Shown in pieces: positions 226 through 64,000 of a DNA stretch of 64,000 nt (the stretch's first letter is position 1; each line of letters begins with the position of its first letter). The position numbers and the translations under genes are program-made. This DNA is from Mesaphorura yosii (lineage: Eukaryota; Arthropoda; Collembola; Poduromorpha; Tullbergiidae), in NCBI GenBank assembly GCA_009869945.1, contig WIXG01000011.1, forward strand, positions 434,001 to 498,000. Direction: 5' to 3'. A model generated the notes under the pieces. The model saw only the letters and a list, made by a program, of their open reading frames with translations. It did no database searches and was not told where the DNA came from.

Positions 226-2852
226 ATGGCCCTGAAAGTTGTGGTTGGGCAAAGTAAGACTTCGATTATTTACATGCCAAAATATTGAGCAACCCTAAAT
301 TTTGATTTTCTATTTTCATATCCAAGAAATCATGACGGATGTCGTGCACGGCTGTGCGACCGGCACAACGACGACAGTCACGAGACCACGGAAAGACTTC
401 TGGCGTGTTCTTGTCGTGGACTACTACGCAATGCGAATCATCTCGTCCTGCTGCAAAGTGCATGATTTGGCCGTGGAAGGAATTCTCGTCATCGAAAATA
501 TTGCCAAGAAACGCCAACCGTTTCCAGCCTGGGAAGCTATTTACCTTGTGAGTCCCACCGAGGCGTCAGTGAATGCAATTATTCAAGACTTCAACGATCC
601 CAAGCGTCTCATGTACAGCAAGGCGCACATTTTCTTCACTGATGGTAAGTTTTGCCTTTGCCATTTTCCCAATTTGTGCCATGCATTTGAAATCCGACTG
701 CATTAGCATTTTCTTCGTGTTGCAGTATGTTCGGATGATTTATTCGAAAAGTTAGGCAAGGCTCGATTTGCCAGTCGGATCGAGACGGTGAAGGAAATTG
801 ATATTGCTTTTCTGCCGTACGAGAGCCAGGTGAGTAGGCAATAAGGTCTCAAATGGCCATGGCTGCGCTGCGCTGCTGCACGGTTGCAGTAAAATTTATG
901 AGATTTGCCAAAACTCATTATCATTATCATGAGACACGATTTGACCATAAAATTCTATTTTGCTTGATTGCACCCGACGATAAAAATAATACGTACGTCG
1001 TTCCTGCTTTCTGTTCGTAGGTGTTCACGTTAGATTCGCCCGAAGTATTTAAACTTTACTACGGAGTGTCCACGTGTCCCGACGACAAACTCACAGTGGC
1101 CATGGACCGAATGGCCGAACAAATTGCGACGTTGTGTGCGACGCTGAATGAATTTCCATACATTCGATACAGGCAGGTCATTTTACGACCTTTCTGACTG
1201 TTGACTGTCGATTGTATTCTAATTACTCATTCTGACTTCGCTAATAGCAATTATGGAAATGCGGAGCAAAACATGAAGCTGGCGGACACGGTGCAGAGGA
1301 AACTGAATATTTACAAGCAGACGCACGCACCGACGATGGGTGCCGGAGGAGCCTCGTCACGTTCTCAGTTGCTTATACTTGATCGAAGTTTCGACCTAGT
1401 CTCGCCGCTTCTTCACGAGCTCACGTTCCAAGCAATGGCGTACGATCTCCTGGATATAAAGAATGACTCGTACAAGTTCATAGAAGGCGCTGTGGGTGGG
1501 TCGAAGGAGAAGGAAATATTTCTGGACGAGTCTGATGATTTATGGAGAGAGTTGAGGCACAAAAGCATCGGAACGGTCTCTGAGTAAGTTTTGGTTTCGG
1601 CATTCGGAAACTTTGGACTTACGGAGGCAGTGAGAAATGAAAAATTAAACCGTGCATTTCCAGACTCATTGGAGATGCAGTCAAGAAATTCAGTGCGAGC
1701 AAGAAAGGGCTTATGAAGGGCGACGCTACAAACATGAAGGACTTGGCGAAAATGGTGAAGGAAATGCCGCAGTATCAGAAAGAACTGAAAAAGTATACTT
1801 CGAGTTCACGAGTCGCACAGGATTGCATTCAAGACAGTGATCGAATTCGATTGCTTTGTAAAGTTGAGCAGGTAAACCAAAATTTCCGTGTAAAACACAC
1901 GCACACACGTATGAGGAATGCTTGTCAATTTATGCCTTTGATCTGAAGGATTTGGCAATGACCACGGACGAAAATGGCGAACCAATCAAGGACTACATGT
2001 CGGTGATGAACCCTGTGCTTATGGATTCCATCGGAGTTCGGCCTGAAGAAAAGCTGCGAGTCATTCTTCTGTATCTCCTTTCACAAAATGGCGTTCCTCG
2101 CGAGAGGCTGGAAAAGCTCTTGCAGCACGGTGATCTTAGCTCTTCTCTCATGTCGACGCTGACCAATTTGGAGCTGCTGGGTATAAATGTGACGAATGAA
2201 CCCGTAAGTCACCAGAAACAGCACCAGCTTGTTGAATTCGTCTTTGTTATCCGCTATTATTAATGACTCCGACACTATTTTGTTCACAGAAAAATAGCAA
2301 GCAAAGTCAGGTTCCTCACTGCAAAGTCAAACAGGTTGGCGAGGACGAGACGTTTAACATATTTCAGAGATGGGAACCAACTGTCAAGTACCTAATCAAG
2401 GACTTAATGAGTGGTAAACTGGATGACAAAATGTTTCCGTACTTGCCTGGTCGTGTGATGAACTCCACCGCGAATAAAGCGCAAGCAGTCAGGTAATACA
2501 ACGCATGCAATTGAATGCTAAATGCTTAGTGGTAAATGCGTCGTCTTTCTTGCTTCTTTAGCGCGCGCTTCGGAAATTGGCAAAAAGCTGACAAAAATGG
2601 GCAAGCCACGAGCCAAAGCTCTCTGCCGCGACTCATTGTATTCATCACCGGTGGTGTGGCATTTTCGGAAATGAGATGCGCGTACGAGTTGTCGGAATCC
2701 AAAGACTACGATGTGCTTATTGGTAACAAAAACTCACAAAGCGTAATTTCCTATTGCGATTCTTGACGATTTCCTTCCATTTGTATGCAGGATCCACGAA
2801 TGTCATTACGCCATCAAAGTTTGTTGAGAATTTGAAGGATTTGCGGGCGTAA
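226..2852 (+). CDS. Rop: Munc18/Rop (syntaxin-binding protein 1 type) SM protein, complete, ten exons
   Basis: Sec1/Munc18-family protein that binds syntaxin and SNARE complexes and is needed for synaptic and general secretory vesicle fusion at the plasma membrane. Exons: 226-253, 327-644, 726-829, 1021-1172, 1248-1583, 1664-1871, 1949-2203, 2290-2492, 2562-2722, 2791-2852; 608 aa, against about 595 in fly and human. Family blocks seen in order include [90 protein letters not shown] and SEMRCAYE. The ATG at 226 opens [10 protein letters not shown], which matches the family N-terminus. Residues about 16-30 hold a Thr/Arg-rich insertion of some ten residues compared with Rop and human STXBP1, in domain 1. 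The junction after exon 4 seems to use a GC donor. Introns are 69-191 bp. Identification is from remembered family sequence; the choice of Munc18-1/Rop over another Munc18 paralogue is probable. Confidence 0.93.
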
Positions 2853-2916
2853 AAGCGTGGAACGAAGGAGTACTTGGATAGTCATCGATTTAGTAATTCA
2901 CATAGCGGAATCAAGA

Positions 2917-2922
2917 ATTAAA
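2917..2922 (+). terminator. Proximal poly(A) signal (ATTAAA) of Rop
   Basis: An ATTAAA hexamer lies 65 nt after the Rop stop codon. It is a common variant signal and would give a very short 3' UTR. Confidence 0.4.
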
Positions 2923-3654
2923 GTAGCAACGTAATGCAAAATGTGGGAATCAATTGTTATCTCGTCGTAGAATTCTTAGCCAAGCGTTCGTATTCAATGT
3001 CGCATAGGCTATGAAAGTTGTTCTTGTTAAACTTGTTAGCTGCGATTCGTACTTGTCACAGTTAAAACTTGTTAAAACTCTCGATTCGAGTCGCGAACAC
3101 AAAGCTGCAGTCGCAGTTTTGTTACTCGTAGCTAGATCATGTCACTCGTCACTGATCATGTCAACAGAAATTCGTATGTGCGTGCCTTTTTGTTGTTATC
3201 TTAATGCGTTCTTGTTAGAGTTGTTGCCGTTAAATTCTTGAAAGAAGAGGAAAACTAGTGGCTTTCACATTAAAGTCTTAATCGTATGCAAATCGCGAGC
3301 TGTCGCGTAGTCAATCTTCACGTAGACTGCTGGTTTTGATGTTAATGTTATGATGTTATCTCAAATAGGCTAAGTAAATGCGAAAATTGTGCCCAAGTCC
3401 ATTACAGAGCTTCTGAAAAATCACTTTTCGCATTTAGTTCCTCATTTTTGCTTTTGCTTCTCATTTCCGATTATCTTAATTTCACATTTTTATGTGCTGC
3501 GATCCCGCCGCCACCGCGTAGTTGCGCAATTCTTTTGTGCTGCGTTGTGCCTAATCTCATTTTATACGGGCTTAATCTTTTGCTAATTTACAACCACATT
3601 TTTCAATTTATTTATTTGCTATTTGCTTAAGTTCACGCGAGTCATGAATCGTGA

Positions 3655-5077: not shown

Positions 5078-7102
5078 ATGATACAGATAATCATCGTCAT
5101 CACCGCATTATGTAGCTCAATTGTTTCTGAGTCGGCCAACGATAATAACACGACGACGGAACACGAAATCCTTCAACTTGCGAATTGTGAACCTCATAAG
5201 AACACGGTCTTTGTCTTCTTTTGTGCCCTCGCTGCAAAAATGAAGACAAGTCGGTCCTGGCTCTGGTCCCGTAGCAGTAATTACTTTCAGTTTATCAGTA
5301 ATAGCTTAATACTTACGTTGTTCTTAAACGTAAGTCCACTCAGCGGCAAGTTCACGTCCCTGGAAGCCAGCGAAGGACTTTGTCCTGCACCGGGCACACT
5401 GCCAGTCGCGGAGCACGCCAATTATCCATGGGTAAGTACTAAAAGTACATACGAATCGAAAGCTCTGTCGACTAGAGTTAACAATGACTAGGCTTATTGT
5501 TCCTAGTTACTGATTGGACGCCGGTACTACGTCCCAATGGCCAGCCGGCACGCAATCCACAAATACGCCGAAGTATTTTTGGGACGTCCTGCTCGAGATC
5601 ATTACGAATTGAATCGCATGAATTTGCAAATCGAACATGTCCTGGGGAAGTACCGGAAAATGGGATTTGACCGTGAATTTCGCCAGCTATGCCTCTCGGA
5701 ATCAAGGACAGTCCGCAGATTCCCACGAAACTTGCTGGAACGATATTGCTACGTCATCCGGTCTTGGTTAGCTGGAGAAGGCACTGATGTTAATTTAATG
5801 GCCACCTCACTGGACACGATTGTCTGGACAGACAACCACACAGCGATTCTAGTCACCAAATGCATCAACCACATGTATTACGACTGGGAGGTGTACTCGA
5901 TTGGGAAAACGTTGCTGCCTCATGTTCGTGACCAGATTCTGGAAGTCATACAATTCTTGGGCTTCAGCCTGCACAACGTCCTCTTCTACGATTATGAGCA
6001 TCACAAATTCTATGAACAGCCACTCGTGCCGCTGATTGCGCATGGACCGCCAGTTGGACTGATTAAGGCAAATGTAGGTCCTTTCAAGGCATTGCCAGCG
6101 CCTCCGTTACCTCTTCCACCGGTTCATCATCACCTAGAGCACGTTAATTTGAATCACGTGGCTGTCGACCATCACCATCACCATCATCCGCATCATCACC
6201 TGGAGCAGGTCAATTTGAATCATATCCCTGTCGACCCTCACTCTCATTCACATCCCCATCATCACCTGGAGCAAGTCAATTTGAATCATATCCCTGTCGA
6301 TCCTCATCATCGACCATCGACCCATCCTGACCACCCACACCAGCATTTGGAGCATGTTAACGTGGATCAGCATCATCATGTGCAGCATGTAAAGGTCGAT
6401 CCACATCACTCGCATCACATCGAGTACGTCAAGACCAATCATGTTGACCCTAATCATCCTTCCGTGGTTCCAGTTGTGCATGCAAGCCATGGGCTTAAGG
6501 GTCATGTACAGGACAAGCAAAAACTACGAGATTATGGGCCGATGTCGTACTATGCAGTCGAGATTCATCCTGACCCCGAGAAGGGATACTATGCTCACCC
6601 TCCTCCAGAATTTCTCAAGCACCACCACGAAGGGCAGACACACGTAATTCATCAGGATCCAATTCTTCATAACCACCACCATCATCATCAAGACCTTCAT
6701 GGCGGGTCTGTCCTTACGGGACCAAGTGCACCTACAGTTCCTATAAATTATGCACCACTTATCCCTTCGTACTCGGAGGACGCACCTGTGCAGAGTGCTG
6801 ACAACGCTCATCATGACGCGCAACCGTCCCAGATGCTGCAAGATTCCAAAAAGTTACTTGAACAAACAAGGAAATTTGCGGAGCTGCAGCAGGCTGAGAT
6901 TCAGCAACTTTACCATAACCCCGTCCTGCAGTATGCGGCGACATCACAACAAAAACAGGTGCTGACACATTCCCAAACACTTTCTGCCACTCCAGCATCC
7001 GCACCTGATGTCCAAACCCACGAAGTAGGAAATCCGCGGCATCCTTCGACTGCCATTACAGCACTTGCACAACTTCCTGTATCCTATTTTACCTCGTCGT
7101 AG
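5078..7102 (+). CDS. Secreted histidine-rich repeat protein, function unknown, two exons
   Basis: Exons 5078-5431 and 5507-7102, joined in phase 0 by a GT-AG intron; 649 aa from the first ATG. I do not recognise the family. From the ATG at 5078 the N-terminus is a hydrophobic leader. A second in-frame ATG at 5240 (Met55) is followed by a basic stretch and the hydrophobic run SLILTLFLNVSPLSG, an equally good signal peptide, so the start is uncertain. Residues about 95-300 form a globular, probably helical region with four cysteines (C102, C180, C199, C237), which could make two disulfides. From about residue 320 the chain is dominated by His, Pro, Asp and Val/Asn, with 22-residue repeats at 325-390 and further His clusters to about 430 and again near 500. 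The end is Gln/Ser/Thr-rich. Secretion and metal (Zn/Cu/Ni) binding or pH-responsive assembly are inferences from composition only. Confidence 0.8.
6125..6322 (+). repeat. 66-bp tandem repeat (three copies) coding 22-residue His-rich units
   Basis: Copies start at 6125, 6191 and 6257, exactly 66 bp apart and in frame. Each encodes H-H-H-L-E-(H/Q)-V-N-L-N-H-(V/I)-(A/P)-V-D followed by a His/Ser/Pro spacer. The second and third copies are nearly identical at nucleotide level, which indicates recent duplication. Degenerate relatives (HLEHVNVD, HVQHVKVD, HIEYVKTN) continue to about 6470. Confidence 0.92.
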
Positions 7103-22100: not shown

Positions 22101-24330
22101 ATTTTTTTCATGGAACTCGAACACGGTTATGGCTCAGGCTAGGCCTGAGGATAGTTACAAGATAGGGAAAGTTATATAGGAAACCTGCTATTAGCAACTG
22201 CATAGCGACAAAGCAGACCAGAGATTAGTTGGGGGAGATTCCAGCACAACACAGCACAGATTCACAGATGCATTTATAGCCAGCACATTGAGTAATCTAC
22301 ATTCTATAGACATGCATGTGGAGTGTAACGCAGTGGAGAGATGCGGAGAAAAAGAGTTCCAGCTGAATGTCATCTCCAAGCATGTGCACAGCATAAAGCA
22401 ATACGCAGCAATAAAGGGTTCTTGCCCTTACGAGTTAACAGTGTCGATGCCGGCCGTGGCGATGCCGAGTTTGTTGTTGTCGAGGTGTATCACGTACGTG
22501 TACGTGTATTGTAGCGTGGAGCAGGGAAACCCTGTATCTGCATCTACATTAGCGGCATCGGCAACAATCATAACAACGAACGACAATGAACTATGACTAC
22601 CATCCACCTTCATACTCTCATACTACTCATACCAAGCAGCAGTGAATTTTATCCGGTATGAGTTGAGGTTCGAGCAGAGCGGTTTGTTGTTGCCTGCCAG
22701 ATTCCTTCAGGCATAAAGCACATGCTGCATGCATAGTCGATGAACCCTTTTCTCTATTGTTGTCGTTGCGCAACGCAACTAACTGCAACAAGCAACGAAA
22801 AAGAGAACTGGTCATAATGATGTGGGGTGCTCCGGCTCAGACTCGTCCGCTGCCTGCTTGCCTGCCTCGTGTGGGATTTTCTTTTCCAGTGCGAGTGCAA
22901 TGATGCAGTGGTTGCTGCTCTTGCTGTTGAGATTGTCAAAATTGTGTAATATGGTAATCATGTACACCAACCGGCTGATTTTGTCAGTTGAACCACTCCG
23001 CATGGCGCGAATGCGTTCGCGTACGTACGTGTAGCCGGTACCTCGGCCGTCGGCCCACCGCCTACAAACATGATTCATGCTGATTTACTTCACTGCTGCT
23101 TTAGTGCTTTAGAGATTTTGGACTGTGGAAGTAGAGTTCCAAAGTGCTAATCTGCTTAAAGCTTTAAATCATCCGCATCCTGAGATAAAAAGAGCCTTCG
23201 CCATTCCATTGCTATTTGTATAATTGATTGCGGAGCTGTGCTGTGCCCGGAGCCAGTGCCGTTGCAGTGAGTGTGAATAGAAAAGGCCGGCCCGAAATTC
23301 GGTTTCAACCAGTTTCAGTTTTGACGGGAGGAAACGGCGAACAAAGGTTGTGTGCGCTGCTGCACGCGAAAGGCGAAACTTGGTACTTGGAAGGAAGACA
23401 AGAAGTTCGGTTTTCGGGTAGGTTCGACTGTGTTGGTGTTGATTGTTAGAGCCGAAGCCTTGAGTTGAGGCTGTGAATCGGAACTTTCTCTCCGCGCATT
23501 CTCCCTATTCTGTTTCTATGCAAGTTCCGTGGCCTTCTCCTTGAATGACGGCGTGTGCTTTGTACTTATGCTGCTCTTGTTCTCCTCTGCGCCCACTTCT
23601 TTGCCCGAAATCCGAATCCAGTCCAGAAATAGAACGGGCAACCTGTTTCATGGCATGATCGCGCACAGCACAGTCTGCCAGCCAGTAGTACACCGAACAT
23701 GTGTACAGCACATCTCGTGCCGTTGCTTTGCCGTTCTCGTCTGCGCTCGCTAACAAAGTTTTCGGATTTTCTGTGTTTCTAGGTGGAGAAGGAAGAGAAA
23801 GCAATTTCCCGTGTTGGAGAATTGAGGTCATCGCGAACGACACGAACGAACGCAGAAAGCAAAGCAGTGCAGAACTCTCATACATTTCGAATGTTGTTGT
23901 CGAGTCGGGAACGTGCACAGTAACCGACGACCGGGTGCGGGTGTGAAACGAAAACGTAACTAAGTGAAGAATACTTATGCGTGAACGGTGAGTGACAAAG
24001 ATAAACACTGATAAGAAATTGAAGGTGAAACAAGACATCACCATCAAGCAACACAACATACGACAGCAATACAAAAATTGCTCCTGCTGCGAGCAGATAA
24101 TGTGAAACCAATTCACTGCGGCGCAGCCAAGAACTTGAACTATTGTCAATAGACGATATTACTGCTTCAACTCCTGCCTGCCTACGCGAAGACAACGCGC
24201 TATTCCTTGACCTTCATTTTATACGTACTTTAAATCAAAAACACAAGTGTTCATTCGTTGCTGGTCATAAAAGCTAAAAATAATTACTGGAAGAATCACG
24301 CATTTGCATTACGCGACCTGCGTTGAAATA

Positions 24331-24348
24331 ATGAATCAAGGATCTTGA
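24331..24348 (+). promoter_or_regulatory. Five-codon upstream ORF in the Glut4EF leader
   Basis: ATG at 24331 reads M-N-Q-G-S and stops at a TGA ending 24348, 35 nt before the main start at 24384. It sits in a different frame from the main ORF. Such minimal uORFs can lower translation of the main frame; here that is inference. It requires that this stretch be in the mature transcript. Confidence 0.45.
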
Positions 24349-24383
24349 GCGTCAAACTCAAGACACAGAAAGACAAATCTAAA

Positions 24384-24860
24384 ATGTCTGCCGGGAAACG
24401 ACTCGCGAAGCGGTCCATCGTGGGCACACGCGTCGGGGCTCTGTACAAGGAGACTGGGTACTACCATCCTGGCTCCATCATAGCCGTCAAGAACCCAGAA
24501 GACCCGAGCGTGCTGCAGCTGAACGGCCAAACCGTGTCTACGGGCCACACGTCGGGCATCACGCCCAACTCCAGGTACGTGGTCAAATTTGAGAGCACGG
24601 GCGACGTCCGAGAGTACGGCGAGACGGACCTCATTGGCCCCGGATTCAAGCCGATGAGCAACCTCAAGCTGAGGTCAGGCCAGAAAATCTACATCACATA
24701 CAATGGGCGCGAAGTGCAGGGCACCGTCGTCTATCATCAGCCAGCCAAAGATGAAGTACTTATCACCATTCAACCACAACAGTTAGCGTCGTCCTCAACC
24801 ACAAACACCAACAACCCGGCTGCTGGGTCAAATCCGAATGGCGTATCATCACCAGTTGAG
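24384..24860 (+). CDS. Glut4EF: Glut4EF exon 1 (N-terminal conserved domain)
   Basis: 159 codons ending in phase 0 at GAG before a GTAAGC donor. It encodes [18 protein letters not shown], the [11 protein letters not shown]...[11 protein letters not shown] core, and the [16 protein letters not shown] segment. These look like two beta-rich, SH3/chromo-like halves, each beginning with a 'G.(R/K)...' turn. It is unusually GC-rich for the window, as are the other coding exons. Confidence 0.9.
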
Positions 24861-27800
24861 GTAAGCCGAGCTTCATTTGCTCACTTCCTTTCATTTTGCC
24901 GACAACGACGCTTGTCGATTCTGCATGTCATTTCATATCGAATGTATAAAATTTGTTGTGAGTGGTTTCAAGTTGGGTGTTTGAATTGAAGGAGGCATGC
25001 ACTTTAAATTTACATGAAATACGCAGTAGCAAGTTGCAAGCAGCAAGCAGCATGTAGCGACAGAGATCGGAGGACTTGATATCCGTGTTCCATGGAATTA
25101 CAAATTATTTGCATACCATTCAGTATTCGGAACTCCGCAGTAGAAGTTAGAAGTTCTACAAGCACAAGCAGAAGTAGCGATAGCATGAGTTCAATTCAAA
25201 GATTCAAAAGCGGAGTGAACCGTAAAGTGAAAGACCCAACCGACGACCGAGTTGAGCAGAGTTCAATAGCAACAGTCGCGAGCCGCGACTCGCGAGTTGT
25301 AGCTTCCCAGAAAGAAAGTACTAACACGAAAATGACAACATTCTCAAGTAATGCAAAGCGTTAAAGCCAAGCCAAAGCAAGACGCATTTCGCATTTTGCT
25401 GGTGCGCAATTTATGAAAACACACCACAACACAGCGTGGAACCTGAAAGGCAGTTCAGCTGATGTTCAGCAAGGCTAGGCAAAGCCAGCTGGGTAGCCTC
25501 CTGTCCAAGACCATCGGCCGAGGGTGCATCGCGCATGTACAAATGAAAGAAAACATTGAACAAGTATGGAAGAGAAGAGAAATGTGCATGTTTTACAGAG
25601 TGCAAAGTACAGGAGCCTATGCCTTGCCGCTGGTCAGCCTGTAAAAGTAAATTCGGTATGGATTTACGGAGAAATGAGCACGATGGTGGTATGTGTTTAT
25701 GGTCCCGCCATCGCATTGGTCGGTTTCAGGTTTACATTTTGTTATTAAAGCTTCGAAGACTGCGTCGCAGCCGCACCGGTGCAAGAAAGTCTTTGTTCCT
25801 TGTAAAGATGCAAGCAGAACCTTGAGCAGTTGTTCTTTCTCTTTTGACAACTAACTTCAGCTGTTTGCTTGCTGTGCTCTTTCAGAGTTCAAGCTAATTG
25901 CGCAAGGATATCGGACAATGTAATTCAATAACCCAGGCGAGTACGGCGGTTCAATGAATGAGATTGCAATTGCAGCAATTTTCCTGGTAAACAGAATAAT
26001 TATTTGTGATTGCAGAATGCTAAATCGAGATCAGATCAGATTCGATGTCGATGTTTCCTCGTGCCGTGCCTCGTGCTCTCGTGCTCGATTATTATCAACA
26101 AAGCAGAGTTTCATTGAACTCTAATAGCCTTAGCTTAGCTGTGATTATGCATCTGCCCTGCTCTGCTTTGCACCCATGATTCGCAATTATAATTTTTCAG
26201 TACATCAACTCGACTGATTGTTTACATTTTTATTCCATAGTTTATATTTTGCAGTTTGCAGTTTCGTTTCTGAATCTGACTACGTTTCACAATTGGTTGC
26301 TGGGTCGTGTCGAAGCGATGCGCGTGCGTGATGTGTCTGAGTCTTCCTTAACCCTTTATAATCTCGAGCATGTGAATCATGTTGCGTTGCGTTGCTTTGC
26401 GTTCATTTTACGTTGACTCGACTTGGCTTATCGTAAATCGTAAGCCTTTGTGGAATCTCAGTCGAGAAACGCTCACATGTGCGCGTAGCATTAAATTTTT
26501 TGTCGACTTGTTTTCGGATTTTTTAAAAACGTAACGAACGTTTGGAGTGTTTGCAATTAAAATGCCTTACTTCTTTGTGATACCGTATTTTTATCGTGCG
26601 AGGGGCGAGTATGAGGCATCAGTCACTGAACCCTGCGCTGTGCACCGCCGTGCTACGACTTCGAGCGAGGTGATTCATATGATACGAGCACTGACACTGA
26701 TACCGCAACTAAGCACCACACGCTGCCGATGATTAGGCTACGATGGGAGGATGTGTAATGTGTAATTGGAATGATACCGATTGGCTTTGTCATTATTGGG
26801 ATTTACGTCATGTAGCTGCAGGATAGAAACAATAGGAAATTGGGGAAGGTTTGACTACCACAAATGCAAACACAAACCCAAAATAATGACGGTCAGACAC
26901 ACGCGAATTGCCCATGCGAATTGCGTGCGACGGCGGGTGCATGGCATTGGTCAATGGCATGAGCCATGACCAGTCAGAAATTTTCCGAGAATTACGAAAA
27001 CAGAAAACGTACGTCTAGTACCTAGCTTTCTAGCAGCAATTATTGCGAAATCTGAAACTCTATCATGTCGAGTCGAACGCCGCAGACAATTCGACGCCCG
27101 ACACGACGCGACGTGCCACTAGGCTACGATTGACAACGTCCTTTATTCTCGGTACTCGGATCAATACACTCGTCCTTGTCAGGTTGTTCATATCCACATT
27201 AATTATTGGCCGGGGCTTTTAGTGTCATTATTTATTGATCGGGTCTCATGGACATGGGCAAGTTTGGACTCCGGCTGGTGCTCTTCCGTTGTAATTAGTG
27301 GATAGAAAGTTCGTATAAACTCTGAACATTTAATTTTACCAAGTTCTTTTGCGTTTTCCCTCACATTTCAGTTTTCATACCGCACGGCACATTCCTTTGT
27401 TCTGGCGGACGGACTTCAGTTTGTTGACATTGACAGCGGACAATGTTCAGCTCAGGTATGTACGTGGCTCAGCTCGCTTCACACGCGATGTGATGCGATT
27501 CGTGCTTTCCTCAAACTCTAAACGAAATTGTCCTGCTCGCACTGCCATACCGGTACTGCACGGCAAAAGCTAAGACGCCAAGACAAGAGCGTAGGACATG
27601 ATTGCGTATAGTGAAAAACTCAAACTATGTAAATGTTGTATTTTAATGACATATTACTATGTATGCGAATATGAAATGCGAGAGCGATGCGAAATAATAA
27701 TGCCCAATTTCACTTCAAAATCCCGTTAAAGAAATTTCCACCACTTTTCGCATCCACATCTTTATATTTATGCGTCGCGTCCTGTCCTGTGCGAAAATAT

Positions 27801-48800: not shown

Positions 48801-51800
48801 CATTTGTTCCGTAATTTGAAGGCTGAATTCAGGAGCCAGGAGCCAAAAGTTAATGAGGAAGCGTGTTACTGGCACAAGCTATTATTAGAATACCGTAAAG
48901 ACCATTAGACGGAGAGAAAAGACACTAGACTGCAAAGGTAATCGAATTCTCCGGAACACGAACACAGGCGTTCAGGCATTCGAAGCATCGAGAAGCAAGT
49001 TAAGTTGTCGAAAGCAAAAAATGACAAGGTTACAGATTTTGCCTGCATTGGCAAAGCAAAAAGCTTCGCACCGGCACCGGCACGAACGTCGACCGACTGG
49101 AATTTTACAGAACTTGATTATGCAACAGCAACACAATGATTACTACCTGCTACCGGTGCGGTTCGGTCTGCGGTAGCTGAGAGGTTTTTTATAAAGACGT
49201 GTTTGTTAAGTAAATCATGTGTGAAGAATAAAAACATAGTAACTCTTAGCCAGGCTGGCAGCAACAGTGAGCAAGAATGTTGTTGTTGCAAATGAAGGCA
49301 AGTAATGACGCCAATGGACTGGCTTATTAATAATCGGGCCTGGAATAGATTACCGGTACGGGTTTTGCTTGGAGGGAAGAGGAATTCGTTGGCAGTCGGT
49401 GATGGTAATGGCGATGTGTGTCAACTGTTCTTGAATCTGCTGCGTCGCCTTGAATCTTGTGCCAACAAAAACCGTAAAGGTGTAACGAAACGTGAAAAGA
49501 AAGAAAACATGTCTTGTGTCTGCGTCTTCATTTCATGGTATCATGACTGGCGTTGGCACGGTGTGCCGGATGCGGACGATGGTTTTGGTTTCTTTCGGTG
49601 CACTGTGCACACAGAATGGTTATGGAGCAAATACGAGGAACTGTACTGACTATTGACTTGACTTGACGCTGACAAACGTGTTGACTTATTTTTAAATATT
49701 TGGTGCTTGACACAATTTTATAAATTAACTTAACCATGCAATGAATGCCCACATGGCACCCAGTGACCTTCCTTGACTTAGAAAATAGAAAATGCTCTTA
49801 AAAGCTTCTCAATTGGCAGCTGTACTTAAATTGGCCGACTGTTTTGTGTTTCCTGCAGGAATGATCTCATCTTCATGGAGCTCTTCCTCATCTGGTGCGT
49901 CCTCCTGGCTGAGCAATGCCAGTTTTGGCACCACCACCAACGGCATCGTGATTCCACCGGGCGGTGGCACAGGCACCGGGATCGGGAGCCTGAGCTCGCG
50001 CCACAGCAGCAGCAGTCATTCCAACCACAGTCAACGCAGTTCAAGTTCACCGGCAGGTGGTGAATTTCATCACATCAACAACTTCAGCCCCACACCGTCC
50101 TCGTCTGACGACGGGATCGAGAGCGACAATGGCGGCACTGCGAGCGTAGGTGGGCTGACAATCTCGGGCAGTGCCGGCGGAGCGGCAAACGATGTGTTCC
50201 TGCTCGGATGGCCAGGAAGCGGAGGTGCCAACGTCGGTGCGGGCAATGGCGATGAACCGCGGAAAAAGAAGACGAAACTCATCTTCAAATGCACTTGGCC
50301 TGGTTGTACAATGATGAAGGATAGTTGCTTTGAAATCGAAGCGCACGTTCGCTATGCTCATTTAGGGTGAGTTGGCTTGATTTATTGTGGCACATCATTA
50401 AAAGAAATTGTCGCATTTACATTCGTTCGTGTTTCACGACTTCGAAACTTGAGCGTAGGACATTTCGACATGAATAGCTCTCAAGTGTGATCATTTATGT
50501 GTCAGTCAATTGAAGGATTTTATGTGTCAAGATTCTGTGTGTGTTTTCGGGGTCGTTTTTCGTGTAGCGCGCCTAATGAGATGATAAAATACAGAATTTT
50601 ATTTATAGAACGTTGAATCTGAGTCAGAAAGAGAGATCATCCGAGATCCGCTTTCCGCGTGTATTAATAAGGAAAAGGTCGCAGTCGCAGGAAAAGCCGA
50701 ATGTTCGATTACGGTCTAACGAAAGTCGAATAATGTCGTCTAATGTGAATTTAATGAAGATGAAGACTTGCTGACTTGCAATTGGAACTCGCATTTATGT
50801 TTATTTATGCTTTTATGTTTATGTTTTGTAGGCCACAACCTGACGCAATTGACGATCATGAAGAGGAATTTTATTACACTGAAATTGAAGCACCCGTGAC
50901 TTCCAGCAGCAGTGATTTCGCACTTTCATCGTCGTGTTCATCATCATCACCACTTGGACTGAATTTCATGGCATTCTCACCGACACTCTCTCACATGGAT
51001 ATGGTTCGTCCACCATCTGAAGGTAAGCCACCCAATGGCTTTAACAATGAAGCATTATTGCCATATGCAACTCGGGCCAGTGCTCAAGGATGTAGATCAG
51101 GAAGATGGCTGGTAATCTCTTCTCTCTGATAAAGTGCGAAATAAACGACGACTGCCAACATGCACGCGTTCAGGCATAAATGACTTACGCTCAAAACTTG
51201 AAACGCCCATGAAGCCAGCCGGCCGAAATGCACGCGCAAAGTAGCTGCTCGTATGATGCAGTGTTTCGATTTGCGATTGTGATCCTGGACTTTAGACAGT
51301 GAACTTTTTTGCGCTATTGTCCTACTTTTGGTAAATGGGAGAAGAAATACCAGCTTAGCCTGATTGTTGTGAAGGTCAACTCCTTTTCGCGATTGCGAAG
51401 CGGCGCAGCTGATCCTGTCGATACGATCACATCCTGTAATGATGATTTATTAAGTAGTCGCTGATCTTGATTTTTGTTTTGTTTCTTTGCAGATCCAGAG
51501 TACAAATTGAGTCAACTACATAATAGCGCACTACGTAAGTCTCCAAATGGAACTGGAAATACTCATCACTTTAACGCTAGTAATAACCCAAAGAAAAGAC
51601 TTTCGCCAAAATCGAGTCCAGTTCGTCGTCCACGAGGTGACACCAAGAAATGTCGTAAGGTGAGGTTACGGGCAATGATTACAAGGAATTATAGTGCCGA
51701 AGGCTTGACAAATCCAATAATCAAATGTCCTCTTCTTGTTAATGCAGGTTTATGGCATGGATCACCGCGAACTTTGGTGCACGCAATGCAAATGGAAGAA

Positions 51801-57437: not shown

Positions 57438-58478
57438 ATGGAGACGGGTCTCCTGTCATTACTTGAATCGAAGTTGGAGACTGTTCGGATTCCCAATGAC
57501 ACCGATAAAGTTTTCAAAGACGAATGCATTTACTCGTTTACAACAATTAAGGTAAGCAAACTCATCATCGGTTGTCGAATTGTGGTATAAAGGCACAAAT
57601 CATGCCCCGTACAAGTTCCAAGACGTAATTTGGGAATCCTTTGTGTCGCAGAATTCGAGTGATGGACTTTACGTTTGCCTGAATAAGTTCTGGGCATTCA
57701 ACAGATCTCACATGAAAGAATACCATAAGATAAGTGGCAACTCATTATTCCTACGGATAAGGAGAGCCAAATCTTCAACAAAAAAGTCGGAGACCTCGTC
57801 CCAATCTGATGAGAAAGGAGAATCCAGCGATCTGCCACCAGCGAAAATGAGTCGGAAAGACAGCAGCGAAGATGAGTACGAGAACCAGTTCGATCTAATT
57901 GTTATGCCAGATTTCCAATCCGTATCCCTACCGAGGGATGAGCTGCCGCAAAAGGTAAATTCAATTTCACATGAGAAGGTTGGCCTTATCTAGATACCAT
58001 CCCTGCCAACGTTTTATGACTGTATTATGCCGATGACAATAGATCCAAGACTCCATCACGGCAATTCAGGAGAAGCCATCTGCCCCTGTTTCTGATCTGT
58101 TATTGGGAGATGAGCCGCTGTTCCTGGAAATAAACGGAAAACAATACACTTCTGAAGACGACCTGTATCAAAGCTCGTTGCAGCAGCCACTTGTACCCGA
58201 CCCTATTATCATTACGAATTGGCGTGGGAGATCTGACAAGGGGAACGGCAGGAATTTTGACAACAACCGTGGTCGTGATCGCGATCGTGACCGAGACAGA
58301 GATCGTGGGTGGGGACGGCCCAGCAGCGGGTCGAGTCACAGTCACGGTAAGACTCATTTTTTTTACAATGAGGATAATTCATCATTCCCTCATTTGTGAT
58401 TGCTCTATTTGGTCTGTCTCAGGAGGCGGAGGCGAAGGAAGCAGGAATGAAGTTCGCTTTCATCGTCCATGGCGTTAA
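57438..58478 (+). CDS. USP5 N-terminal (variant UBP zinc-finger) domain joined to an Arg/Asp-rich tail; no catalytic domain
   Basis: Exons 57438-57551, 57652-57954, 58043-58346 and 58423-58478, with phases 0, 0 and 1 matching; 258 aa. Residues 1-150 match the N-terminus of USP5/isopeptidase T: start L-L-S-L-L-E, V-R-I-P-N-D-T-D-K-V-F-K-D-E-C, then D-G-L-Y-V-C-L-N-K-F, L-F-L-R-I-R-R and L-I-V-M-P-D-F. In full-length USP5 (about 850 aa) this is the non-ubiquitin-binding nUBP domain that packs on the catalytic core. Here the ubiquitin-binding UBP finger, the Cys and His boxes and both UBA domains are absent. Homology fades near residue 155. A new region then ends in an RD-repeat tract (about 215-231), S/H/G residues and R-F-H-R-P-W-R. 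Mixed-charge RD tracts are typical of nuclear-speckle and RNA-associated proteins. It cannot be a deubiquitinase; a decoy, scaffold or RNA-associated role is inference. Introns show it is not a retrocopy. Confidence 0.75.
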
Positions 58479-58605: not shown

Positions 58606-58798
58606 CAGGATGCCCAATAAAGATTGTCTCCCCCTGCAGCAAAATCTGGAGGGGTTGGGGTCAAGTCTCATATATCATTCGAAAGCTTATGTTCACACGG
58701 ATCCACACGCAAAACTTCATCAGGACCCGACCACCCGTTCGAAAGTTATGCTCATTTTAGCGAAAAAATGTGAAGGGGCACCGTTATTGGGTACCCTG
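58606..58798. mobile_element. MITE-like element with inverted ends, TA-flanked (Tc1/mariner-type)
   Basis: Left end CAGGATGCCCAATAA and right end, read on the minus strand, CAGGGTACCCAATAA match at 13 of 15 positions. The element is 193 bp and is flanked on both sides by TA (58604-58605 and 58799-58800), the target duplication of Tc1/mariner elements. CAGGGTG-type termini are common in that superfamily. The short open frame inside is not a transposase, so this is non-autonomous. The interior has two copies of a TTCGAAAG(C/T)TTATG-like word. Confidence 0.72.
58616..58621 (+). terminator. Poly(A) signal lying in the MITE left inverted repeat
   Basis: AATAAA is the nearest canonical signal downstream of the USP5-like stop (138 nt away) and lies inside the left terminal repeat of the MITE-like element. 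Another AATAAA lies at about 59421. Confidence 0.45.
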
Positions 58799-59527: not shown

Positions 59528-62500
59528 TTAAACTAAAGTGTGGGCCGACGCCTGCTTCTCACGCTCCTTCACAGCCCTCTTCGTCGGAATCGGGTAGCGA
59601 TCTCGCTCACGGCCACTGCCATTGATTGTCGGCTGTGAAATGGCACCAATGTTGGTATGAATTTGTTGCGGATGTGGAAATATGTGCATCTGCACGTCTC
59701 GTGGCATTGGCGAAGGCGACGGAGTCATTCGAGGCTGCTGGCTCAGTTTTACTCCAGAGTCCATCGAGTCAATCGTTTTTACAGTCTCTGCGTACTCGCT
59801 TGTGATTTCATCACCACCGCCAACTGTAACAGAAATTCAATCATTGTACCACCGCCCATGCTTTTAATAGGGTATTGTTCGGGTTCGTAAATCGTACCTA
59901 AATGCCCGAGGACAAGCGGAGTCGCATGGCCGTGACTGTTGAGTCCCAAGTCCTCGTATATTCGATCTCTCTGCCGCTTAGTTGTTCGCCAGAGGAGACA
60001 GCAAATGATCAGAACAACCAGCAAAAGCAAACAAATGCCACTGACCGACCAAAATGCGACCTGAATCGGTTGATTAGCTTCCCACCTAAAATGCAATCAG
60101 GAATTAGGTTAACTTTCCTCGTCGCTCGTACTGAACAGAACTTTACGGGTTTACGTACCAGTATTCCGTCGTTGGAGGCCATGTTGGAACGTACTTCCCA
60201 ACCACAAATGGCATGTATTCAGTCCAGAAAGTCAATTCTCTCTGTCGATAATTCCGATCCATTGTTGAGTTATTCGTGCCATTAAGCGCCAGATATTTAA
60301 GATCAGCCGGAGTGGTTCTCTCCCAGAAGATTCCCAATATCTGACTCGAGGTGGGATGCCCAAGATGGGCAAAGTTCGCGATGGACGTCAACATAAATAA
60401 ACTCATGTTCCGGTCGCCCTCCGTCCAGACAGACCGATCAACCCGTAAACGTTCGGGCAAAAATTCTGGCGAACGCAAATCATTTTAAGCACTTCCTTAA
60501 CGATCGGGCATGTCCGAGATTTACCTGGATCCATAAATGGTGCTCCAGCCAGTAAGTAGTACTCCAGCTCTCGTGAAACTTCCCTCCAATGCGGTAGCCT
60601 GAGTCCTTCTAGCGTGTAGTTCAGTACCATCGTGTGCACTTGAGTTCCTCGAGCCAGCAGTAATTTGATAGTTTGGTCAATCGCTGAACCGTACAAAGCG
60701 TCGGACAGGAACTGCAGAAGAAGTGAACGAAACATTAAGCATCATATAGTTCTAATGGTAACTTTTAACTTACCTCAATGTATTGTTCTCTCATGTGCGT
60801 GGTGTTTGTCGGATCGGGCCAATACGTGTACGCATACCGAATTGCGTGGAACACACCTTCGGGGTTCAGCGTGTAATTGTACTTGCGTATCCACAAATTA
60901 ATCTGCTCGTCAAACCATGGTCTCGTCACAATGAAGTTGGGTGCCAGTGTCTTGTTGGCGTACAGCAGGTCAGCGGCACACTGTCTCGAGAACCCCGTCA
61001 TATATTTAATGGTGGATGGATAATTACTGGCGCGGAGTAAGTTCTCTGGCGTGTCTGGCAGGAATCTCCAGTCGACTTCTTTCCAGTCATGTTGGAAGTC
61101 GTCATGCGGCACAGTGAATTCGCGATCGACGACGGGAGACCACGGGAAGTATCCGACATCCGGCTGTTTAAGAGACGCGTGTCGTGAATTAATAAGCATT
61201 CTTTGACGTAGGAAGATGGGCAATAATGTAAAAAAAGCCAGGTCAGGCTTACGTCTAGTTCCAAATTCGCCAATTCCTGCCAGCTTCTTGACCGTAGGCA
61301 TTGGACCATTGTCCATGATGTGTGATCATACTCGTGCCAACAGCCCATTTTCAAGGCGTAGAGTTCAGTCGTATTTTGCAAACGATAGCGGTCCCAAATT
61401 GCAGCCCAGTCGGCGGTTGGTGCTCCTTCAAGTGCAATTACGTTGTGTACCAGGTCGCGTGTTCTCGGTGACAACTAAAAAGAAGTACAAAAGACACGAT
61501 ACAGCATGAAGATATCACAGTTACGTCGGTTCAGCTTGATTGTAGTGTGTGCGAGTTCGTACCATCAGGAGTCCAGCCGCTGCTGCTCCAGATCCCAATC
61601 CCAGCAAGTTGATGCGATTTGGGTCCCCATTAAACGATCTTAACAAAGAAAATATAATTGGGGCTTACATTTAATTCGTAAGTCACGATCGTGATCTCGG
61701 TGCGAAGGAGCGAGATCTCACGAACACGAACCTGATATTTGTGTGAACCCACTTGAGAGCCATTGACAAGTCAAGCATTCCATAATTTCCAGGAGAAAAT
61801 TCATCTGCAGTACTCAGGAATCCCAGTGACCCCAACCGGAAGTTGACAGTAACGACGACGAGCTTGTACCAGCCAACCAGCTGGTGTGGAGGAAGCGTCT
61901 GGGACCCACCATGAATAAAATCTCCGTCGTGAATATAAAATATGACTGGGTACGGTGCACCCTCCGCTCCGGATCCGACATCCGGTGAGAACACGTTCAG
62001 GTAAAGGCAGTCTTCGTCAACCTGGACAATTCCTTCCTGGTATCCAAAGTATCGGAGTGGTTGTGGGCACGCGGGACCAAATTCTACGGCTTGATGCAGC
62101 ACCCAACCAGGATGCGTTCGTGGCGGACGAAATCGACCTTCATTGATTGGCGCACGTGCGTATGGAATGCCAACAAATGAATGGACGGTGGCTTTCACTT
62201 TATCGACCTTGGCGATCCCGGGACGGGCAGGCAATTCCACAAAGGGTCCTGTCAGCGACAACCGAACACAAATTTGACATTTCGTTTCAACTTTGCATGT
62301 ACGATGCGATAAGAAGTCATTTCAACAAATACATACCGTCGTACAGCTTCACTTTAAATCCCTGTACTCGCCCGTAGGAAGTCGTTGTATAAACTGGTGT
62401 GGGAACCACATTAATATCTTCCGGGCGTTGCATTCCTTGCAGCTCGTCCCTCCATCGGCCCAGGACACCGGGAGCCATCGGGCGATACGTGGTCGTCGAC

Positions 62501-63576
62501 CAGCGCTCATTCCAGAAGTTTTGATTGGGTAATCCGGGATCAAAGACTCCTCGCGAGTCGTAGCGACCACTTCCAGGCTGTTGACGTGGGTCAACGTAAA
62601 TTCCGCCAGGATTGTAATAGCCTATGTTACCCGCACCAGCTCCACCACCTGTCCCGGTGTTTGGTTGCTGCCCTCCAATTCCAAGCGTGCCGCCTCCGCC
62701 AATGATTGGTCTCTCGCGATCTCTGTCCGGCTGAAAATTAACTGGATCTGATCCGAACGGGAAACGACCTGCTCCAAGCGGATCTCGCTCAGTAACTGAT
62801 GACCCCGGATAACGTTGTCCAATGTACGGCCCGCTTGGATCACCGACGTTGCTATTTGGACCCACATTCGATACGTAATTTTGTGAGAACGTTCCAAACG
62901 ATGCACCTCCACGATATCTCGGGTTATTTGGAATGTCTTCAAGCCGGGCAAGCTGATCCTGGCGTCTCTGCGTCTGCTCAACGAAATTCGGTGGGTTGCT
63001 TCCGGTGGTGCCCGACGAAGGGATGCTACGACCGACTGATTGGTCTCCGAACGTGGCGACGTTTGGATTGGCGCCGTAAATCGGTTCTACTTGTTGCACT
63101 GACTGATTGTCTCTTACGTTAGTGCCGAGTGGCGGCTTGACATACTTTTTCGCAATGTTCGGGTCAATAAAAATCGGACCTTTGCCTCCTCCGAACACGT
63201 CTGGATTCTGCTGGTAATACTCAGTAATATTTCCGTGCTGGTACAGGGTATGAGTACCATTTGAATAGTACTGAATTGGTAACTGGCTTTGTCGACCGGA
63301 TCCGGATCGGTCGCCCGCACTGCCGGGCAAGGGCTGAACATTTTGAGATCCATAACGTTGGCTTTGTTCTAGCAGAATTCTTTGATTCTCGTACGGGTCA
63401 TGTACACGTGGCGGCGGGGATGAATTCTCGACGTGCGCCTTTACTTCAAAGTAATGGTCATCAAAGGGCACTTTCGCTACCTGACTGCTTGTGAGAGTTA
63501 GGATCAGGAGGAAGTACACCAGAATGGCAGACATGGAGCGGATAAGTTTGTGTGACTTGAACGGACGAAAATACAT
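59528..63576 (-). CDS. Gli: Gliotactin, catalytically dead cholinesterase-like adhesion protein, nine exons
   Basis: Type I membrane protein of arthropod tricellular septate junctions. Exons on the minus strand, in order: 63576-62337, 62248-61732, 61638-61563, 61474-61253, 61163-60774, 60711-60525, 60465-60154, 60077-59898, 59823-59528; phases close to 1139 aa. Signal peptide at residues 1-32 (start Met1 or Met15). A long Pro/Gly/Asn/Gln-rich leader runs to about 400 and ends G-R-V-Q-G-F-K-V-K-L-Y-D-G. The alpha/beta-hydrolase domain spans about 414-960, with E-D-C-L-Y-L-N-V-F at 492-500, paired Cys474/Cys494 and Y-I-H-D-G-D-F. The nucleophile elbow is G-L-G-S-G (599-603), so the catalytic Ser is Gly, and the usual His motif is absent. 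Transmembrane helix 988-1011. The 128-residue tail ends H-T-L-V, a class I PDZ ligand. Fly gliotactin is shorter (about 950 aa). The exon 7/8 junction is the least certain. Gene identity over other neuroligin-like proteins is likely but remembered, not searched. Confidence 0.9.
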
Positions 63577-64000
63577 CTCGAACTCTTGACTTTTTCTTGG
63601 TTAACTTGATAACTGGCAGTGGAATCTCATTGGCGTGGCTTGATTTGGTTGTAAGCAACTTAATTTCAGATGAAATCTCTCAATAAAAGCCACAAGCACT
63701 CTCTCAATCAGTCACACAGTCTTTTGGGGTTTGTAATTCAGTCCTCGCAGCTCGCTCGGAGGCACACAATGGGAGGAAGTTCGGTAGGTTGATGGAATGA
63801 TACTTCAGCACAGGTAATCGTCAACTAAACTGTACACATTTAACACTTCCTCTACTATCCTGCACTGCAGTACACGCATTGGCGATGGGAAGGGATGAGT
63901 CATCGACTGCAATCGCGACGACTAACATTAAATGCACACACTTGCAATGACTCAGGTCATTGTCAAGTTGGGCATGGCTGACTGATTGCTGACTTCGCTG
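63577..64000. other. Upstream region of gliotactin
   Basis: About 420 bp before the gliotactin ATG, running to the window edge. It should contain the 5' leader and part of the promoter. No TATA box or further coding exon was identified. Confidence 0.4.

Follow-up and report, generated by a model that had tools for sequence, protein, structure and literature searches.

The window analyzed here, a 64,000-nucleotide stretch of the Mesaphorura yosii genome, is part of contig C11 of an assembly of 93 Mb in 1127 contigs. Its plus strand carries a gene of four exons which, as originally predicted, join in frame to encode 258 amino acids, with GT..AG boundaries at all three introns and a TAA stop at 58476-58478. 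Exon 1 (57438-57551) provides the start codon and the first part of an nUBP domain (residues 1-38), to which positions 1-23 of the Pfam profile zf-UBP_var (PF17807) match. Exon 2 (57652-57954; residues 39-139) encodes the nUBP core and a Ser/Lys/Glu-rich loop that replaces the RLAIGVEGGF region of USP5. The first part of exon 3 (58043-58114) holds the end of the nUBP, the junction of the fusion, and a linker to a predicted RAM domain; the BLAST alignment with the animal's own USP5 reaches residue 153. The putative RNMT-activation segment of RAM follows at 58115-58201 (residues about 164-192, continuing to W199 at 58222), as assigned by PF15320 and by alignment with human RAM. The remainder of exon 3 (58202-58346) contains the end of this segment and an Arg-rich, RNA-binding-like RAM segment, covered by the PF15320 match up to residue 240; an Arg-Asp repeat tract read from the sequence (R217-R227; 58274-58306) lies within it. 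Exon 4 (58423-58478) encodes the last 18 residues (241-258), the first of whose codons is split by intron 3, and the stop. A possible poly(A) signal, AATAAA (58616-58621), begins 138 bases past the stop.

Codon scores were trained on 1724 codons from the animal's own USP5, its own RNMT, and one WD40-like frame. For exons 1-3, the called frame was the best of six (0.070, 0.083, and 0.166, respectively). In exon 4, another frame outscored the called frame (0.267 vs -0.019), making this exon the least certain part of the gene. Intron 1 scored 0.058 in one frame, close to the values of exons 1 and 2, indicating that the score is a weak test for short pieces. The gene itself is real, with the exon structure that was first described for it.

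The next gene was said to start about 1.05 kb away on the other strand. Both the strand and the distance were borne out, but what lies nearest is apparently the 3' end of that gene, not its start: a carboxylesterase gene (PF00135) occupies 59528-63600 on the minus strand, with its last open frame at 59528. Because its 3' end appears nearest, the two genes converge. By eye, the carboxylesterase is neuroligin-like, with a likely transmembrane segment near the 3' end. A minus-strand open frame at 62320-63600 contains a long Gly/Pro/Asn-rich stretch and was matched by none of the Pfam families (E up to 0.01). Elsewhere in the window, all on the plus strand, are a DUF4772 (PF15997) frame at 24327-24986; a Ser/Gly-rich frame 25 kb from it (49789-50367), with a terminal C2H2-like motif by eye and no Pfam match; and a 531-residue open frame with His-rich repeats (5507-7099), for which no Pfam match was obtained at E up to 0.01. 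We assume that the DUF4772 and Ser/Gly-rich frames may belong to a single long gene similar to ZNF395/ZNF704, and that the N-terminus of the 531-residue frame resembles BTG/Tob proteins. In the whole assembly, COX1 found no match at E up to 0.001, suggesting that the mitochondrial genome may be missing from it. A telomere-type repeat of one tardigrade likewise gave 0 matches, and the lipocalin/FABP genes did not point to any one phylum.

The N-terminus of the 258-residue protein was confirmed to be USP5-like: PF17807 matched residues 16-78 (E 3.6e-21, 75.1 bits), and human USP5 (3ihp) aligned with residues 9-149 (E 6.3e-15). The catalytic and UBA parts are absent, as had been predicted; a search of the 258 residues for zf-UBP, UCH, and UBA found none of them at E up to 10. 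When USP5 was sought elsewhere in the genome, a full-length copy was found on the minus strand of contig C125, indicating that the gene studied here is not a fragment of the sole USP5. Our hand-built 15-exon model of this copy encodes 805 residues, in which zf-UBP_var, zf-UBP, UCH, and UBA are all present. In the same model (C125:140501-150500), two GC-AG introns (donor GCAAGT), after 6121 and 5859, keep the frame.

The fusion protein and the animal's own USP5 are 40% identical (58/144; BLAST E 3e-27). Intron 1 is common to both genes, lying in phase 0 four residues before a shared GLY, and intron 2 of the fusion coincides in position with USP5 intron 3, also in phase 0; USP5 intron 2 is missing from the fusion. 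Two introns at USP5 positions and phase point to DNA duplication and fusion; retained introns had originally been taken to argue for DNA duplication or gene breakage. These comparisons support a partial USP5 paralogue that arose by duplication at the DNA level, and the identity of 40% suggests that the duplicate is probably old. The homology passes intron 2 into exon 3 (IQDSITAIQ in the fusion vs VLDSIAAIQ in USP5), so that the junction to the RAM domain falls inside one open exon. The frame of exon 3 is closed on its 5' side by a TAG at 58040-58042, and the exon itself lacks an in-frame ATG; translation of RAM must therefore begin in exon 2 or before it, barring an unseen 5' exon. The in-exon junction, the upstream stop, and the lack of a Met are hard to reconcile with an assembly error or with two neighbouring genes.

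The original prediction described the gene as only an nUBP domain followed by a novel segment. The Pfam match presented here, and the shuffle controls given below, instead identify the C-terminal part as a RAM domain. PF15320 (RNMT-activating mini protein, RAM/RAMAC) matched residues 172-240 with E 6.1e-8 and 33.5 bits against a cut-off of 25, and the C-terminal half alone scored 35.6 bits. The supposedly free nUBP with a novel tail is thus joined to a known domain, and the RD tract lies inside the arginine-rich RNA-binding segment of that domain. The protein architecture is, as judged from its sequence, nUBP(USP5)-RAM, so its natural reading is a cap-methyltransferase activator. An exon-by-exon profile search of the 93-Mb genome, from which an intron-split RAM could escape, found no second RAM over the cut-off. 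The only other PF15320 match at E up to 10, on contig C74, scored 19.8 bits, below the cut-off. It was rejected as a second RAM; it sits in a 521-residue frame in which WD40 repeats and a basic tail can be made out by eye, and which we take to be WDR33-like.

We then compared the C-terminal half with human RAM. Local alignment with human RAM 2-45, the letters of which were checked against 5e8j_C, scored 52, whereas none of 5000 shuffles scored above 45. In a pairwise MAFFT alignment, 13 columns were identical, or 12 without the leading D, which is located ahead of a gap. W199 of the fusion corresponds to W43 of human RAM (5e8j_C). Among the 16 human contact residues listed in the available text of PMC5137418, five are identical (F11, Y26, P38, I39, and W43) and two are similar (F19Y and V40I); F15, R18, E25, Y29, R32, P37, and E42 are not kept, and A7 and V8 are unaligned. 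Of the human residues that form salt bridges, E25 is replaced in the fusion by L, R32 by Q, and E42 by N. Past the activation segment, residues 200-230 are rich in R, N, and D, and the PF15320 match runs on to residue 240. The QYP-rich C-terminal nuclear localisation segment of human RAM is absent; the fusion ends in GGGGEGSRNEVRFHRPWR, encoded in part by the uncertain exon 4.

All four pieces matching PF03291 at E up to 0.001 belong to one RNMT gene on contig C68 (model at C68:129001-133500, positions 1545-3085). The gene is complete; its protein has 391 residues in the chosen model, or 400 with the other in-frame acceptor, and scored 364.7 bits against PF03291. Where human RNMT has its 41-residue RAM-binding lobe (416-456), the animal's own RNMT has a segment of 43 residues (52 in the alternative splice model). 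The two segments are weakly alike, with 11 of 40 aligned residues identical. Seven of the 19 RNMT contact residues listed in the available part of PMC5137418 are identical and five are conservative, while R450 and Y443 are replaced by F and D; since the two enzymes share 138/307 residues overall, the contact residues are conserved no better than the rest. The phmmer alignment of the same RNMT to 1ri1 (Ecm1) stops at residue 318, before the lobe segment, and a piece at 369-391 scored only 0.1 bits. The lobe-length insert indicates the presence of an insert and is not in itself proof of binding.

On balance, we think it probable that the nUBP-RAM fusion works as the animal's RNMT-activating subunit, with the nUBP as an extra protein-docking domain. 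The gene and the fusion are well supported, and the architecture is new within a known family; support for the role in RNMT activation is moderate. The roles of the RAM domain have been described (PMC5137418, PMC12599247, and PMC3235549). The RAM segment (residues about 164-200) would dock on the groove between lobe and hinge of the animal's own RNMT and raise cap methylation, and the Arg-rich stretch (about 200-240) would bind nascent RNA. The nUBP may serve as an N-terminal docking module through which some partner is brought to the capping machinery, and the surface with which it once contacted the USP5 core may have been lost. An isolated cryptic ZnF (human USP5 1-168) bound c-Maf by IP, according to the available text of PMC5636991. 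In human RAM, control is exerted through phosphorylation of Ser36 followed by ubiquitination, with K10, K24, and K31 implicated, as stated in the accessible part of PMC4977272. In the fusion, L165, D179, Q186, and P191 take the places of K10/K24/K31 and Ser36, and none of the human residues is kept; turnover of the fusion should therefore be controlled differently from that of human RAM. That the deubiquitinase domain carried by the fusion has a part in this is a tempting but speculative idea.

Alternatively, RAM may be functional with the nUBP as a tolerated passenger, captured behind a USP5-derived promoter and first exons, such that the nUBP only helps folding or expression. We regard this as unlikely, although it has the strongest claim among the alternatives. 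Conservation of the nUBP bears on it directly. The animal's own USP5 and human USP5 (3ihp) are identical at 59 of 138 positions in the nUBP, and the fusion retains 28 of these 59. In the first 82 residues, corresponding to the Pfam core, 20/33 common residues are kept, and 5/9 are kept past residues 83-118; within the 83-118 region, which contains RLAIGVEGGF and whose loop is hard to align, the fusion retains 3/17. The fusion also matches human USP5 at another 13 positions, where the animal's own copy has a different residue. A domain of which the Pfam core alone is well kept would suit a passenger, as would the fact that human RAM, a protein of 118 amino acids, functions without such a domain according to the available text of PMC3235549. 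However, the fusion nUBP still scores 75.1 bits to PF17807, compared with 85.2 bits for the animal's own USP5, to which it is 40% identical; this suggests that the fold is still under constraint. Judged from these three sequences, whose loop is difficult to align, the nUBP fold seems to have been kept and a USP5-specific surface not.

The same pattern weakens the idea that a free nUBP could act as a dominant modulator of USP5, given 3/17 retained residues in the RLAIGVEGGF region, with its loop hard to align, vs 20/33 in the Pfam core. A related reading is that the fusion acts on USP5, either by competing for its catalytic core or by bringing USP5 to RAM and RNMT and shielding both from ubiquitin-dependent degradation. 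In its favour, the accessible text of PMC5636991 and PMC11201890 has the cryptic ZnF of USP5 binding the catalytic core, and human RAM is under ubiquitination control in that of PMC4977272; the fusion lacks Ser36 and K10/K24/K31 at the aligned positions. Yet the animal's own USP5 has an intact nUBP, and 14/17 of the residues common to human USP5 and this copy are lost from the 83-118 region of the fusion, making such an action improbable.

Because the tail is rich in Arg and Asp, the match to RAM was controlled for composition; if the match were false, the gene would be a shortened USP5 paralogue ending in low-complexity sequence rich in arginine. When the RNMT-binding and activation segment was shuffled and the tail left real, 0/5 controls matched PF15320. 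Conversely, when the RD tail was shuffled and the activation segment left real, 4/4 sequences scored above the cut-off (26.9-31.4 bits). Neither the RD tail alone nor a hand-scrambled activation segment followed by the real tail gave any PF15320 match. The activation segment by itself falls below the curated Pfam cut-off (22.6 bits, E 1.6e-4; 19.3 bits with another cut), phmmer of the C-terminal half against the PDB at E up to 10 returned one chance match and did not find the RAM chain 5e8j_C, and several human RAM contact residues are lost. These points are outweighed by the shuffle controls and by the pairwise comparison, in which 0/5000 shuffles reached the real score. In addition, the activation segment and the arginine-rich segment follow one another in the correct order, and the same genome encodes an RNMT whose insert has the length of the lobe. 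We therefore consider a spurious RAM match very improbable. Least credible is a pseudogene, or a chimera from assembly or annotation: the evidence comes from the DNA of one genome and exon 4 is not favoured by its codon score, but the frame is open across four exons with canonical splice sites and a downstream AATAAA, the junction is in frame within one exon, and the intron positions are conserved.

In three papers, RAM or the RNMT lobe is described as confined to vertebrates. The available text of PMC5137418 places RAM only in vertebrates, where the RNMT lobe co-evolved with it, and asks why RAM evolved; that of PMC12599247 (2025) again restricts the lobe to vertebrates, and that of PMC3235549 identifies RAM orthologues in vertebrates only. 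A RAM of a Daphnia iridovirus is nevertheless in print in PMC5873915, as seen in its accessible part, and already hints at RAM beyond vertebrates. We scanned IMG/VR for close relatives with single-sequence queries: the C-terminal half yielded 26 stretches that fit the pattern and human RAM 1-49 yielded 17, of which 0 were confirmed in either case. These scans were not exhaustive, as judged from the reported Daphnia iridovirus RAM (PMC5873915). The Pfam RAM family may also hold invertebrate members, in which case databases may already contain RAM from animals other than vertebrates. The nUBP-RAM fusion is the firmer novelty; no report of it was found among the matches listed in the openly licensed literature.

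The assembly size of 93 Mb and the identities to human proteins (138/307 for RNMT and 59/138 for the USP5 nUBP) fit an animal that is not a vertebrate, since vertebrate orthologues are far closer to the human ones. An invertebrate RAM domain together with an RNMT that has a lobe-length insert would argue that the activator system is older than vertebrates. In its fullest form, this interpretation holds that an invertebrate has its sole RAM in permanent fusion with a domain of deubiquitinase origin, so that the activator would bring its own docking site and couple mRNA capping to the ubiquitin system, and that RAM-type activation of an RNMT with a lobe predates vertebrates. We put this forward tentatively, as a possibility that falls short of being the probable one. 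The fusion offers a natural experiment on the couplings possible for RAM. It also illustrates that a two-domain fusion can be concealed when a gene is read as a shortened enzyme followed by a novel tail.

The predicted protein can be compared with three known systems. With USP5 (isopeptidase T) it shares the nUBP, or cryptic ZnF-UBP (PF17807), at 40% identity to the animal's own copy and with two intron positions in common. Unlike USP5, it has no zf-UBP, catalytic, or UBA domains, carries a Ser/Lys/Glu-rich loop in place of the RLAIGVEGGF region, and continues from the nUBP into RAM. Its likeness to RAM (RAMAC, FAM103A1) consists of an activation segment with equivalents of F11, Y26, P38, I39, and W43, followed by an Arg-rich, RNA-binding-like segment. 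Whereas human RAM is a free protein of 118 amino acids, according to the available text of PMC3235549, the RAM of M. yosii has a USP5 nUBP joined to its N-terminus, lacks the QYP-rich tail and equivalents of Ser36 and K10/K24/K31, and belongs to an invertebrate. The activator of the vaccinia D1-D12 cap methyltransferase, named in the accessible part of PMC5137418, is likewise a separate polypeptide that activates allosterically; it is reported there to be unrelated to RAM in sequence.
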